Assembly: GCA_021325235.1 (NCBI GenBank)
Contig: JAJPHN010000015.1
Coordinates: 124,001 to 188,000, forward strand
Source of the DNA: Terriglobia bacterium
GTDB lineage: Bacteria > Acidobacteriota > Terriglobia > Bryobacterales > Bryobacteraceae
Length of the DNA: 64,000 nt
Reading direction: 5' to 3'
Shown here one piece after another: positions 21,069-48,045 of this stretch; position 1 is the stretch's first letter; every line of letters starts with the position of its first letter. The notes beneath the pieces were generated by a model, which saw only the letters and a program-made list of their open reading frames with translations, had not been told where the DNA came from and made no database searches. The position numbers and the translations under genes are program-made.

Positions 21069-23570
21069 TCAGCGAAACGTACTGTACTCGATCCGATTTC
21101 CGTCGGTGCGGAAGCTGATCAGACCGCGCTGATCCGTGCGCAGGATCACCACGTGATGCTCGTTCAACCGCTCGAGCACTGTCGGATGCGGATGATGGAA
21201 GAGATTCTGGTAGCCGTCTGAAATCATGGCAAAACGCGGCTGCAGCACCGAGAGGAAATCCTCCGAAGTCGAGGTCTTGCTGCCGTGGTGGCCGACCTTG
21301 AGCAGCGTCACCGGACGGAGCATACCGCTCTGCAGCATGTCGTTTTCCGCTAGTGCCTCGGCGTCGCCCGTCAGCAACACGCGATGTTTCCCATACGAAA
21401 TTTCGAGTACCAGCGAATCGTTGTTACCGGCGGTTTCAGCAGGCTCATAGTCGGGCGATGGCGCAAGTATCCGAATCTGCGCGCCCCCGATCGTGAAAGC
21501 GTTGGGTGATCGCCGGAGTGAGCGAATGGCCACCTGATCCGCCTTTGCATGTTGCCGCACATTTTCCCAGGCGGGGCTATCGGGTTCGGCTCCGATCCAG
21601 AGCTGGCGAGGATGAAAATCGTCGAGAATCGCGGGCAACCCGCCCATGTGATCCGAGTGTCCGTGTGTCAGCACGGCGTAGTCCAGGCGTCGAATGCGGC
21701 GGCTCCAGAGATACGGTGCGACTACATCTTCGCCCATGTCGATTTGCGGCTTGCGCGTCATGCGTTCCGCGCCGGGAAATCCTCCGGCATCGACCAGCAT
21801 CGTTTCGCCATCCGGAAAAGCAACGAAAAGGCTATCGCCCTGGCTGACGTCGATGGCTGAAATTTCCAGAAACCGCGGCGCGATCTCCGGCTTCCAGGGC
21901 TGCCAGCAGATCACACCGAACAGCGCGAGCGAAGCGGCCAGCGCGGGCGCGATCCAGAGCGGTTTCTGCCTGCGAATCGTGTAACCGAGCAGAATCAGCG
22001 AGCCCGCGAACGCGATGGCCACCGTGATTGGAAGCGCGGCCAGACGCCAGCTGGGCTCAAATCCGGCGTGCCAGGTGGCGATTCGTTCGGCAAAAACGAG
22101 CAGGGCCTTCGTTAGCAGCGCGAGCAGATGCGAACCCGTAGCAATCGAGGCGAAGCCCAGCGGAACCACCAGCGAAAGCAGCGGGATGATGACGATATTC
22201 GCCGAGAGCCCGGTAATCGACAGCCGGTGGAAGTAGGCGATCATCGGCAGCGCGAGGCCAAACTGGACGCAGGCGGAGACGATCACCGTATCGGCGACAA
22301 AAACGCCCAGGCGAACGCCCCAGACCACCAGAAAATCGGCCGCCTTCGCGCTGAGTCCGCAGAGGCGAAGCGTGCGCGAAACGAGCCGCAGTTCCACCCG
22401 CCACTGCCCGGCGCGTTCGGCCAGTTGCGGATCGTAGCGGAGCTGGTCGAAGCGCGTAACCGCCGCGCGCAGAGGCTTCGTAAAGCGCTCCATAACCGGA
22501 ATGGCGAAGGCAGCGATCGCGGCGGCAGACAGGAACGAGAGCTGGAAACTCGGATCAAAGAGCTGATCCGGCGCGAAGGCCAGGTAAATCAAACCCACCG
22601 CCGCCAGCGCATTCAGAATTCTGAGCCGCCGGAAGAAGTAGCTGGCGATCAGAAATAGAGTGAAGCCACCGGCGGCCCGAACCACCGGCGAACTGAATCC
22701 GGTGATAAAGGCATACAACCAGCTCACAGTGGCTGCCACCGCCATGGCCTGAATCCGCCGCACCCGCAGCACTCGCAGGAGCAGCAGGATCGTGAATGCC
22801 AGCACCGAGACATGCTGGCCGGAGATGACGAGCGCGTGGTAGGTCCCGGTTGTACGGAAATCGGCCGTCCAGCGCCGCTCCACACCGCCGGTTTCGCCCA
22901 GCAGGGTTGCCTGTAGCAGGCCGGCCGTATGCGGATCGTCGGGGTAAAGCGCCCGAATGCGGTCGAGCGCCCAGGTCCGAACAGCGTACAGCAAACCGAC
23001 CGCACGGGAGCCGCAAGCGCCCGGCTGCAGGTGGATGTCGCCGGGACTCGAGATCGAGCCGGTCCAGTAGATATGCTGCGCCGCCAGGTACCCGGCATAG
23101 TCGAAGGCGTCCGGGTTCTGGAAATTGCGCGGAGAGCGGACTTTCGCCGCAGCTTCGATCTTCTGGCCGTAGGGTAGCTGCAGGCCGCCGCCGTTCTTCA
23201 GGTTCACCGTCAGCCGGATGTTGGCCGCTGGGCCGAGCGCAAGCGTAAACTGTTCGCGTTCCGGCGAAAACACCGACGGATTCACCACGCAGCCGCTGAG
23301 TAGTACTGTTTCGCCATCTTCGGCGTTCAGCCGGGGCGTTTTCCCGGGCCGGTGCAGCACCTGGGTTGCAATTCCGGCCACGAAACAGGCCGCGAGAAGG
23401 GCAGCAAGTTTCGCGCCTGGGCGATTTTGCCAAACGAAGCCAAGCAACAGGCAGCCGCCTGCGAAGGCAACCGGGAATACTAAGTCACTGAAAGTAAAGT
23501 AGATGAAGTGTGCGAGCAGGATGCCGAGCGCCATGGCGCCGGCCGGGAGCAGTAAGGGTTCGCGCCGCAA
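21069..23570 (-). CDS. comEC: ComEC/Rec2 family DNA uptake channel
   Basis: An 833-residue inner-membrane protein expected to form the channel for single-stranded DNA during natural transformation. The order is an N-terminal DUF4131 region with an OB-like soluble part, the multi-helix competence domain (about 225-520) and a C-terminal metallo-beta-lactamase domain. The latter carries ISAIDVSQGDSLFVAFPDG, THGHSDHMGG near 634-642, LLTGDAEA and LKVGHHGSKTSTSE. Length and order match full ComEC. The start is TTG 23570 or ATG 23534. No other competence gene is in the window, so function as a transformation channel is inferred from family. Confidence 0.92.
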   Translation of the reverse strand: MRREPLLLPAGAMALGILLAHFIYFTFSDLVFPVAFAGGCLLLGFVWQNRPGAKLAALLAACFVAGIATQVLHRPGKTPRLNAEDGETVLLSGCVVNPSVFSPEREQFTLALGPAANIRLTVNLKNGGGLQLPYGQKIEAAAKVRSPRNFQNPDAFDYAGYLAAQHIYWTGSISSPGDIHLQPGACGSRAVGLLYAVRTWALDRIRALYPDDPHTAGLLQATLLGETGGVERRWTADFRTTGTYHALVISGQHVSVLAFTILLLLRVLRVRRIQAMAVAATVSWLYAFITGFSSPVVRAAGGFTLFLIASYFFRRLRILNALAAVGLIYLAFAPDQLFDPSFQLSFLSAAAIAAFAIPVMERFTKPLRAAVTRFDQLRYDPQLAERAGQWRVELRLVSRTLRLCGLSAKAADFLVVWGVRLGVFVADTVIVSACVQFGLALPMIAYFHRLSITGLSANIVIIPLLSLVVPLGFASIATGSHLLALLTKALLVFAERIATWHAGFEPSWRLAALPITVAIAFAGSLILLGYTIRRQKPLWIAPALAASLALFGVICWQPWKPEIAPRFLEISAIDVSQGDSLFVAFPDGETMLVDAGGFPGAERMTRKPQIDMGEDVVAPYLWSRRIRRLDYAVLTHGHSDHMGGLPAILDDFHPRQLWIGAEPDSPAWENVRQHAKADQVAIRSLRRSPNAFTIGGAQIRILAPSPDYEPAETAGNNDSLVLEISYGKHRVLLTGDAEALAENDMLQSGMLRPVTLLKVGHHGSKTSTSEDFLSVLQPRFAMISDGYQNLFHHPHPTVLERLNEHHVVILRTDQRGLISFRTDGNRIEYSTFR

Positions 23571-23644: not shown

Positions 23645-23674
23645 TTGACATATAAATGAAACTAGCTTCATACT
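23645..23674 (+). promoter_or_regulatory. Sigma-70-type promoter in front of an ORF-free transcript
   Basis: A perfect -35 box TTGACA at 23645-23650 is followed after 18 bases by CATACT (23669-23674), which matches the -10 consensus at four of six positions. The surrounding DNA is much more AT-rich than the rest of the window. It points toward the terminator at 23776-23812, with no ORF in between. A TTGACA this good is rare here. Confidence 0.5.
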
Positions 23675-23679
23675 AAAGG

Positions 23680-23812
23680 AGAATTAATCGTTCAGCTTCG
23701 TTCTAGTACTTTCGTTTAGCTCTGGCGAGCCGGTAGCGCGCGAGAATCGCGATTTTTCTCCTCCAACTCAAACCGGGCTGATCGGGGAAGCTCCCCGATC
23801 AGCCATTTTTTT
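23680..23812 (+). ncRNA. Candidate orphan structured RNA, about 130 nt
   Basis: The stretch from the predicted start site to the terminator has no convincing ORF but clear folding potential. AGGAGAA (23677-23683) can pair with TTCTCCT (23756-23762), closing a loop that contains a CGCGA-GAA-TCGCG hairpin (23739-23751) and a weaker CTGG-CGAG-CCGG stem. A perfect 13-bp terminator hairpin follows. Flanking genes are both on the minus strand, and the next plus-strand gene is 2.4 kb away, so this is not a leader of a coding gene. It may be a trans-acting small RNA or a relative of a known bacterial RNA family. Without a covariance search the family is unknown. Confidence 0.5.
23776..23812 (+). terminator. 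Strong intrinsic terminator
   Basis: GGCTGATCGGGGA (23776-23788) and its exact reverse complement (23792-23804) form a 13-bp stem with a three-base loop, followed by A and seven T residues. The T-tract is on the plus strand only. Read from the minus strand the hairpin is followed by CGGTTTGAG, so it poorly fits the 3D-domain gene that ends at 23816. It therefore marks the end of a plus-strand transcript. Confidence 0.9.
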
Positions 23813-23815
23813 GGG

Positions 23816-24334
23816 TCAATGCGGCGTGGTATCGGTCGGCTGAGTTGGGTTCGTTCCTGACTTTTTCTTAGCCGCCCAGTCCGCTTCGGTGGCCGCCCGG
23901 CCGACAGTTCCCTGCTGTACGTCGTGCGCAACGTCTTTTTTGACCGTCTGATCGGCCTGCTGAGCCGAAGCCTTGGTTCCGTTCCCAACCTCCAGCACCG
24001 TCAGCCGCACCCTCTTCTTCCCAAACCTTTTGCATTCGGCCGTGCTCGGGATATAAATGTCGATCTTGCGGCCGACGATTTTTTCTCCGGTATCGGCCAC
24101 CACGTATTCGCCCGAATAACGACCGGCGCGTCGGATGCGTACGCGGCTTCCGATCGGCAGGATATCCGGATCGGCGGCAAGCACGTGGCGATGCGTGTAG
24201 GTGCCGGCTGTGGTGGTGCCGGTAACCGAGTAGGCGGTCGCTATGTACGTCCCGTCCGCCGGATTGCGCGCCAGGGCAGCGAGCGCAAGAGCTGGCAATA
24301 GGCAGATCGCGCGGATCGCGCCGCTTTTGGTCAC
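23816..24334 (-). CDS. Exported 3D-domain protein (MltA/RlpA-type double-psi barrel)
   Basis: A predicted 172-residue secreted protein. From the GTG at 24334 the sequence starts with a plausible signal peptide (SGAIRAICLLPALALAALA). The 3D domain follows: IATAYSVTG, HVLAADPDILPIGSRVRI, then YVVADTGEKIVGRKIDIYI, which supplies the conserved aspartates. Such domains occur in lytic transglycosylases and resuscitation-type cell-wall enzymes. The C-terminal 50 residues are polar and Ala/Gln/Thr-rich. The frame is open up to a TTG at 24418, but those 28 residues are not signal-like and overlap the tandem repeat, so I prefer the inner start. Confidence 0.82.
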   Translation of the reverse strand: MTKSGAIRAICLLPALALAALARNPADGTYIATAYSVTGTTTAGTYTHRHVLAADPDILPIGSRVRIRRAGRYSGEYVVADTGEKIVGRKIDIYIPSTAECKRFGKKRVRLTVLEVGNGTKASAQQADQTVKKDVAHDVQQGTVGRAATEADWAAKKKSGTNPTQPTDTTPH

Positions 24335-24405
24335 GGAAGTGAGACGATCACTCGGCCCAAAGTGCAGCGTGCAGAAAAGTTGTGCGGGTACCAGAGCGCG
24401 TCTCG

Positions 24406-24441
24406 TTGAGAGATTCAAAACACTTTGAGAGATTCAAAACA
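24406..24441. repeat. 17-bp tandem direct repeat
   Basis: TTGAGAGATTCAAAACA occurs perfectly at 24406-24422 and 24425-24441 with a two-base spacer. The second copy contains the stop codon of the DUF4337 gene (24434), and the first copy duplicates that stop. It probably arose by slippage or a short duplication at the gene end. The core TTGA-GAGAT-TCAA is itself partly palindromic. Confidence 0.85.
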
Positions 24442-26177: not shown

Positions 26178-26336
26178 ATGCAGGGATGTCAGCACGAGCG
26201 AACCGAGTTTTTATACCGGCGGGATGGTGTCGATTACGTTCGCTGTCTCGATTGCGGCCAGGTGTTTGAGGCCGAGGATCTGGATTCGGTTCCGGTTTAC
26301 GAGGACGAAGAGGAAAAGCCCAAAAAACGGCGCTGA
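26178..26336 (+). CDS. 52-residue zinc-ribbon-like protein
   Basis: A short gene beginning MQGCQHERTEFLYRRDGVDY and ending KPKKRR. Cys 4 and His 6 near the start plus CLDC (Cys 23 and 26) are spaced like a small zinc ribbon, and the following residues give GQVFEAEDL. The last third is acidic and then basic. It has its own strong promoter and a nearly leaderless ATG. No family is recognised with confidence, but the ordered cysteines, the promoter and the position just before yvcK favour a real gene. A nucleic-acid or protein-binding role is possible. Confidence 0.68.
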   Translation: MQGCQHERTEFLYRRDGVDYVRCLDCGQVFEAEDLDSVPVYEDEEEKPKKRR

Positions 26337-26428: not shown

Positions 26429-27550
26429 ATGCCTAGCGCTTCGCGAAACTCGAAATCGGGCCAGGTACGCCCGAAACAGCTCAAGGGAGCGCTGCAGATC
26501 GTCTCTATCGGGGGCGGGACCGGTCTCTCGACGCTCCTCAGCGGGCTGAAGCAGTACTCGCGCGACGCGCACGGCGGCGCTCACAAGACGCCCGAAGTTG
26601 AGATTACGGCGGTGGTCACGGTAAGCGACGACGGCGGCAGTTCGGGACGGCTGCGGCGGGATTTCGATATCCTGCCGCCGGGCGACATACGGAACTGCAT
26701 GACCGCGCTCTCGGAAGACGAGCATCTGCTCAGCCAGCTTTTCCGTCACCGTTTTGCGGGCGGCCGCGGACTCAAAGGGCACAGCTTCGGCAATCTGTTT
26801 CTGACCGCGATGCACCAGATCACCGGCGATTTCGCGCAGGCCGTAAAGCTATCGTCCGAAATTCTTGCGATTCGGGGACGGATCTTCCCGGCAACTTCGG
26901 CCAATGTATCGCTCGAGGCAGTTCTCAGCGATGGCTCGCTCGTCCGCGGCGAAAGCAAAATTAGCAAGAGCCGATCACCGATCCGGGCGGTACGGCTGCG
27001 CCCTGATTCCTGCGAGCCACTGGAAGAGACGCTGGAGGCAATTGCGGCGGCCGACCTGATTACGCTCGGTCCGGGTTCGCTCTACACCAGCGTGATTCCC
27101 AATCTGCTGGTGAAAGGGCTCGCCGAATCGATTCATCGCTCGCGAGCGCTCAAGGTTTATTTCGGCAACCTCATGTGGCAGCCGGGCGAGACAGTGAATT
27201 TCTCCGCCTCGCAGCACGTCGAAGCCATCCATGCGCACGCGCGCTGCAAGCTGCTCGACTGCGTTGTCGTCAACACGGCGCCCATTCCCTTGAAGCTGCA
27301 GAAGCGGTATGCGAAGGCGCATGTGAAGCCGGTGGAGAACGATTTCGCGCAGCTTTCGAAGATGGGCGTGCGAGTGGTCACCGCGGAGCTGATCGGCGAC
27401 GTTGCGGCGGAACAGAAGAAGATTCGCCACGATCCGGACGCGCTGGCCGAAGTCGTGATCGACCTCGCGAGCCGTTCCCGGTCCCTGCAGTTGAAGAGAC
27501 ATATGCTCACCGAGCATCGAAAACAGGAAGAACGCAGGCCAGTTCAATGA
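26429..27550 (+). CDS. yvcK: YvcK/CofD-like UDP-GlcNAc-binding regulator
   Basis: A 373-residue protein of the YvcK branch of the CofD fold. It has the nucleotide-binding opening IVSIGGGTGLSTLLSGLK, then VVTVSDDGGSSGRLRRDFDILPPGDIRNCM, GHSFGNLFLTA and LGPGSLYTSVIPNLLV. Known homologues bind UDP-sugars and help match cell-wall precursor flow to carbon supply. Its stop overlaps the glmU ATG in an ATGA, placing a UDP-GlcNAc sensor and a UDP-GlcNAc producer in one message. About 15 extra residues at the N terminus are basic and probably unstructured. Confidence 0.93.
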   Translation: MPSASRNSKSGQVRPKQLKGALQIVSIGGGTGLSTLLSGLKQYSRDAHGGAHKTPEVEITAVVTVSDDGGSSGRLRRDFDILPPGDIRNCMTALSEDEHLLSQLFRHRFAGGRGLKGHSFGNLFLTAMHQITGDFAQAVKLSSEILAIRGRIFPATSANVSLEAVLSDGSLVRGESKISKSRSPIRAVRLRPDSCEPLEETLEAIAAADLITLGPGSLYTSVIPNLLVKGLAESIHRSRALKVYFGNLMWQPGETVNFSASQHVEAIHAHARCKLLDCVVVNTAPIPLKLQKRYAKAHVKPVENDFAQLSKMGVRVVTAELIGDVAAEQKKIRHDPDALAEVVIDLASRSRSLQLKRHMLTEHRKQEERRPVQ

Positions 27551-47683: not shown

Positions 47684-48045
47684 TGGTGGAGGCGGCGGGA
47701 GTCGAACCCGCGTCCGAAAAAGCCCGCCGTGCAAAGCCTACGTGTGTATCCGGTTCTGTGCGTTTCGGCAGCTTCCTAAAAAACCGGCAAGAGCGAAAGC
47801 CGCCTAGTCCGATTGATCTCGGCCCTTAGCTCCGGACCGAAGCCAGGTGCCCAGCTTGCAAAGATGACACCCAGCGGCTGACGCGCAAGCTCATCAGCCC
47901 GGGCGCGCTGTCCTAGGTTTTAATTAGGCAGCGTAAGCAAACTGCGTGTTATTGGCAGTTATGTTTTTCCGATCGTTTTACGGGAGCTCGGAACCCGACA
48001 CGCCTTCACACAACGATTCAATCCCGTCGAATCCGTTGCGCCCCC
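47684..48045 (-). ncRNA. ssrA: tmRNA (SsrA)
   Basis: A 362-base transfer-messenger RNA that rescues stalled ribosomes. The 5' end GGGGGCGCAACGGATTCGAC (from 48045) pairs as an acceptor stem with CGCCTCC before ACCA (47684-47693), including the G3-U pair that marks alanine charging. The T arm contains GGGTTCGACTCCCG. The tag frame runs from 47956 to 47924: a resume Ala codon, then NNTQFAYAA and TAA. The CCA is encoded. Several pseudoknot-like stems fill the middle. The tag is close to those known from Solibacter-type acidobacteria, by memory only. Confidence 0.96.

Follow-up and report, generated by a model that had tools for sequence, protein, structure and literature searches.

In the Firmicutes, RsaE/RoxS and FsrA direct an unpaired C-rich seed against Shine-Dalgarno (SD) sequences and end in an intrinsic terminator, and C-rich motifs resembling the anti-SD are also carried by the cuckoo/CcsR small RNAs (sRNAs). 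The CcsR RNAs arise by processing of a longer transcript that also contains a DUF1127 gene (PMC10253847). Members of the rhizobial alpha-r14/NfeR1 family (SmelA075) have three hairpins, all with CCUCCUCCC in the loop (PMC10746234, PMC3927594), and NfeR1, with its CCUCCUCCC seeds, is reported to silence ntrB by occlusion of the ribosome-binding site (PMC10746234). For Acidobacteria, a table in a 2022 review contains only four distinct annotated sRNAs (PMC9029176); among the papers returned by our literature search, which took in Bryobacteraceae small RNAs and acidobacterial comEC-linked sRNAs, none was recognised as dealing with the RNA described here.

The locus lies in a stretch of 64,000 nucleotides (hereafter the window), of which positions 23681-23812 on the plus strand appear, from sequence matches to a promoter and a terminator, to form a stand-alone sRNA gene (Table 1). 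An earlier sequence-only reading had pointed to TTGACA and CATACT separated by an 18-nt spacer, a perfect 13-bp hairpin followed by seven Ts, about 130 bases without a convincing open reading frame (ORF), and two flanking genes on the minus strand, all of which are present. The hairpin occupies 23776-23804, with a loop of 3, and the seven Ts follow at 23806-23812; no ORF of at least 10 codons, starting from ATG, GTG or TTG, is complete within the predicted transcript. The next gene-like ORFs downstream on the plus strand are 26178-26336 (52 aa, a judged call), 2.4 kb away as had been stated, and a CofD-family gene at 26429. No other sigma-70-like match occurs between 22800 and 24800, but as shuffled sequences average 0.4 such matches the promoter is not significant by itself; terminator-like sites in the same interval number 11, as against 2.4 in shuffles, that at 23776-23804 having the longest stem. 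The start of the RNA was placed 7 nt past the -10 element, by the same rule in all copies, and the 5' element covers the discriminator, the probable start and the first bases of the RNA. The genome to which the window belongs holds a single copy of the whole RNA, the other match being the hairpin read on the opposite strand.

Table 1. Coordinates of the predicted sRNA gene, its signals and its neighbours (positions in the window).
Feature	Position	Strand	Basis or remark
-35 element TTGACA	23645..23650	+	kept in 12/12 copies with complete upstream sequence
-10 element CATACT	23669..23674	+	spacer 18 here; 17 or 18 in other copies
5' element, here AAAGGAGAATTAAT (consensus RAAGAAAATTTAAT)	23675..23688	+	identity among 12 copies
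Predicted sRNA, ~132 nt	23681..23812	+	inferred from promoter and terminator
Variable body	23689..23755	+	neither sequence nor fold conserved
Presumed seed UUCUCCUCCAAC, anti-SD-like	23756..23767	+	identical in 13/13 copies
Intrinsic terminator, 13-bp stem, A, T7	23776..23812	+	sequence match and compensatory changes
comEC, divergent neighbour	21069..23570	-	PF03772, 1.8e-42
3D-domain protein, convergent neighbour	23816..24418	-	PF06725, 5e-12

The window comes from an uncultured acidobacterial genus, and a pattern search with the 3' module located copies in 12 of its 17 genomes, that of the window (G000) included; a covariance model of this module yielded a thirteenth (59 bits) in G107, which belongs to a different genus of the same family. 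Among 60 relatives searched with blastn, eight genomes of the genus matched the 3' part weakly (E 0.0017-0.057), and all eight have the seed and hairpin; the copies in G007, G008 and G011 rest on the pattern search. Since the main blastn alignments span query positions 116-175 only, and the pattern and covariance model the 3' module, conservation of the promoter and 5' element constitutes the more independent evidence. A further match in G007 (C178), with neither promoter nor terminator, was taken as chance.

Among 237 genomes of the family the 3' pattern matched 15 (reversed pattern, 3), namely 11 of the genus, G107, and three that are chance-like (G030, G093 and G165); G007, with only five Ts, falls outside these matches. 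Across 399 genomes of the class it matched six (G000, G001, G002, G011, G107 and G165), and none outside the family (control, 1). The covariance model, applied to 150 family genomes, matched 11 at E<=0.1, comprising G000, G001, G002, G107 and seven weaker genomes, of which G182 (34.9 bits) and G163 (29.3 bits) lack the combination of promoter and 5' element that the copies share, and G076, G109, G117, G136 and G170 (22.6-25.5 bits) look like chance. At 1501-1568 of the G182 locus (L081), TTTCTCCTCCTCCAAATTAAAC stands before a different terminator, with no shared promoter, and may represent either a distant relative or convergence. The distribution thus appears narrow, with nothing convincing beyond two genera in the 237 family and 399 class genomes, by searches that require a near-exact seed or a similar module and so could miss more diverged relatives. 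In the five remaining genomes of the genus (G003, G012, G013, G014 and G015) the pattern found no copy and the model gave weak matches in G012 and G014 only; this does not amount to absence, because the comEC contigs of these genomes end upstream, inside or at most 70 nt from comEC. The comEC genes of copy-bearing genomes are only 58-68% identical, and six Acidobacteriota metagenome-assembled genomes, labelled by their submitters as Bryobacteraceae (two), Bryobacterales (one), Terriglobia (one) and Acidobacteriaceae (two), encode close comEC relatives that are 62-73% identical, so that a placement in the Bryobacterales is likely.

Upstream sequence is complete in 12 copies (that of G004 is cut by a contig end), and in all 12 TTGACA stands 17 or 18 nt before a -10 element that reads CATACT in ten, AATACT in G010 and GATAAT in G007; these elements were located by pattern, and by eye in G007 and G107. 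The first 15 nt past the -10 element have a mean pairwise identity of 0.73 in the 12 copies. The consensus 5' element is exact in G001, G002, G006, G009 and G011, has one mismatch in G005 and G107, two in G010, three in the window and G008, and more in G016, where it is weak, and is not recognisable in G007. When the element alone was sought in the 17 genus genomes with up to three mismatches, 23 matches were obtained, as against 4 for the reversed pattern; nine fall at the RNA locus (in 9 of the 17 genomes) and 14 elsewhere, and none of the ten off-locus matches viewed by eye has a rightly spaced TTGACA, or a seed within 170 nt. Beyond it, the body is 27-105 nt long and its sequence is random between relatives, with pairwise identities of 0.23-0.29 in six body windows, some of which run into the anchors in G007 and G016, where the copy is shortest. 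Predicted transcripts are accordingly of variable length (96-175 nt in the 12 complete copies, under the same start rule).

TTCTCCTCCAAC is identical across copies, and the 12-nt seed has a pairwise identity of 1.0, a value that is partly circular since the seed was included in the search pattern and model, whereas that of the next 12 nt is 0.51. Within the terminator, 5 of 11 consensus pairs have changed on both sides among the 12 genus copies, giving 13 compensatory cells as against a mean of 3.3 in shuffles, a count reached in 0 of 500. The joint recurrence of promoter, 5' element, seed and terminator, though the bodies are randomised, suggests that this is a real sRNA gene, and the earlier proposal of a small RNA that is independently transcribed, between signals of its own, gains support from this conservation in relatives.

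The proposal that the RNA is structured fared less well. The 7-bp pairing on which it drew, between AGGAGAA (23677-23683) and TTCTCCT (23756-23762), exists on paper, but the predicted start leaves four of the seven bases in the 5' arm untranscribed, and TTCTCCT lies within the conserved, mostly unpaired seed. Across relatives the helix is 56% paired, and sliding it by -3 columns gives 70% paired cells, more than the helix itself; compensatory changes, suggested earlier as a check, are present in the terminator stem, whereas the 7-bp helix is without covariation. The segment 23675-23812 folds better than 200 of 200 shuffles (z -4.44), a signal attributable to the terminator together with bases that are probably not transcribed; for 23681-23775, which excludes the terminator, z is +0.72, its fold being equalled or bettered by 144 of 200 shuffles. 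As the 7-bp pairing is not conserved and the RNA without its terminator folds no better than shuffles, with a random body and predicted folds that differ among copies, the structured-RNA interpretation was rejected. The conserved part is instead a CU-rich sequence that models predict to be mostly unpaired, the mean unpaired probability of the seed being 0.80 in the window and 0.64 or higher in 10 of 12 copies, with 0.55 in G007 (half paired) and 0.33 in G005 (largely paired); in 9 of 12 copies the accessibility of the seed is reached by at most 7% of upstream 12-mers. Where a terminator drives the z-score, folding statistics can therefore mislead, selection here apparently keeping a mostly unpaired sequence.

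Our preferred interpretation, to which we assign a probability of roughly 0.6, is a trans-acting sRNA whose seed UUCUCCUCCAAC pairs with SD stretches and blocks 30S binding, perhaps with the assistance of Hfq. Transcription would start at the sigma-70-type promoter and stop at the strong intrinsic terminator, leaving a seed that is computed to be largely unpaired a few bases before the terminator hairpin. This sequence is complementary to GUUGGAGGAGAA, which includes a strong SD sequence, and would pair with GGAGGAGAA-type SD stretches of several mRNAs; engagement of its CUCCUCC, complementary to GGAGGAG, would prevent 30S binding and so turn translation off. Hfq, encoded in 17 of 17 genus genomes (93-97 bits), would probably be held by the U-tail and terminator, and the body between the two anchors may be a freely evolving spacer. 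By analogy with NfeR1, occlusion of the ribosome-binding site in trans is the most likely action. The locus combines sequence matches to a promoter of its own and to a terminator with U-tail, no conserved coding, a seed predicted to be unpaired in most copies, and Hfq in the genome, as would be expected of a base-pairing sRNA. Counting against this interpretation are the narrow distribution, the predicted pairing of the seed in G005 and G007, and a site search that yielded no convincing target.

Candidate sites, defined as TTGGAGGAG followed after 2-12 nt by ATG, occur twice in the genome of the window (once for the reversed pattern) and 118 times in the 17 genus genomes (50 for the reversed pattern), an excess that SD sequences alone could explain. 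Thirty of the 118 were viewed as loci; an ORF of at least 60 aa follows the site in 14, ten of which were judged plausible starts. Seven of these ten look exported or envelope-linked by eye or Pfam (L125, L127, L130, L132, L135, L145 and L149), a proportion that has no control for SD strength and that strong SD sequences could produce by themselves. The remaining three do not: L129 encodes a poly-A polymerase head, L143 a glycosyltransferase and L150, which alone among the ten comes from the window's own genome, a helix-turn-helix protein. L125 and L132 (in G001 and G002) form an orthologous pair, 68-69% identical and exported-looking, with TTGGAGGAG before the start; neither these nor L135 (G016), which is also exported-looking with TTGGAGGAG before its start, contains a convincing Pfam domain. 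As targets, the exported or envelope-linked set is only a lead.

An invariant 12-mer would likewise be expected of a protein site or a processing site, and the RNA might act as a decoy or platform that titrates an RNA-binding or translation protein by binding it through UUCUCCUCCAAC or through the invariant GGCUGA/UCAGCC base of the terminator stem. In 12 sequences the six lowest pairs of this stem are without variation, which exceeds what a terminator needs, and no target set emerged from the site search. Part of this invariance is, however, derived from the search, as GGCTGA sat in the genus pattern, although the motif is also present in the eight copies matched by blastn and in G107, found by the model; an anti-SD sequence is, moreover, most simply read as a pairing seed, and we consider a decoy unlikely, if worth keeping in view. 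A long shot is a broad, lineage-specific anti-SD mimic that would copy the 16S anti-SD tail, compete for the SD sequences of many mRNAs and tune initiation globally, with comEC and the ribosomal str operon (rpsL-rpsG-fusA), between which the RNA lies in G001 and G007, marking its ancestral place. If this were true, two fixed ends and a freely evolving body would amount to a minimal sRNA plan, in a phylum otherwise with very few known sRNAs. Although a short RNA may serve two functions, it is extremely improbable that this one encodes a very small protein, as the G016 transcript, like that of the window, is without a complete ORF of at least 10 codons, and ORFs in the other ten copies differ in place and sequence, sharing only residues encoded by the seed.

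Genomic context bears on the two other explanations. With comEC as divergent neighbour in 9 of 13 copies (G000, G001, G005, G006, G007, G008, G011, G016 and, in another genus, G107), the locus could be a divergent promoter-terminator unit whose sole effect is on transcription of comEC, its RNA being a functionless by-product. We regard this as improbable, given that in G002, G009 and G010 the RNA and comEC are on different contigs yet promoter, 5' element and seed are intact (with the two mismatches in the 5' element of G010), and that transcription alone needs no invariant 12-mer before the terminator; the G004 contig begins at the RNA and shows no neighbour on that side. A leader or attenuator of the str operon, or of another downstream gene, is very unlikely. 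Of the 11 genus genomes (out of 17) with an rpsL match, four (G001, G002, G007 and G010) have an rpsL that starts 443-614 nt past the seed and in the same orientation, but in G006, G008, G009, G014 and G016 the 1,467 nt that precede rpsL contain no seed, nor do the ~690 nt that precede it in G011, and the RNA is therefore not tied to this operon. The eleventh, G005, counts for neither side, its contigs extending only 459 nt before rpsL and 296 nt after the RNA. The RNA is followed by something else in 8 of 13 copies (G000, G004, G006, G008, G009, G011, G016 and G107), the next gene in the window is on the opposite strand, and a complete terminator is found in every copy; this variation in the downstream gene indicates that the RNA is not a leader, as the sequence-only reading had argued. 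No relative of the 3D-domain protein was seen adjoining the RNA in other copies. The metagenome-assembled genome of the window, rated 95.7% complete, has no rpsL match, perhaps owing to an assembly gap.

The trans-acting sRNA that we favour thus provides a comparatively well-supported candidate sRNA family for Acidobacteria, together with a sharp prediction as to which 12 bases matter. The earlier suggestion was of an Rfam member or a new RNA, and the search favours the latter: no Rfam 15 family reaches the gathering threshold for 23645-23812, and a permissive threshold gives only chance-level matches to SorY (11.8 bits) and DUF3800-XI (10.4 bits), each of which falls on the terminator hairpin. 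The sole gathering-threshold match in the window is a tmRNA gene at 47684-48045 on the minus strand (175.5 bits). RsaE/RoxS and FsrA share a general likeness with the RNA, which is set apart from them by the lack of any Rfam 15 match. Unlike the cuckoo/CcsR RNAs, the window RNA has its own promoter, and no DUF1127 protein was found among the six window proteins scanned with Pfam. Like alpha-r14/NfeR1, it is a stand-alone sRNA with conserved CCUCC anti-SD sequence in unpaired regions and a remainder that has diverged; here, however, a single UUCUCCUCCAAC lies in the linker before the terminator, the host is an acidobacterium, there is no Rfam match, and the window is without the CCUCCUCCC that occupies the three hairpin loops. 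The RNA seems to resemble the anti-SD sRNAs of Alphaproteobacteria but to fall outside their families, and a new sRNA family, of a kind already known, is the most fitting classification.
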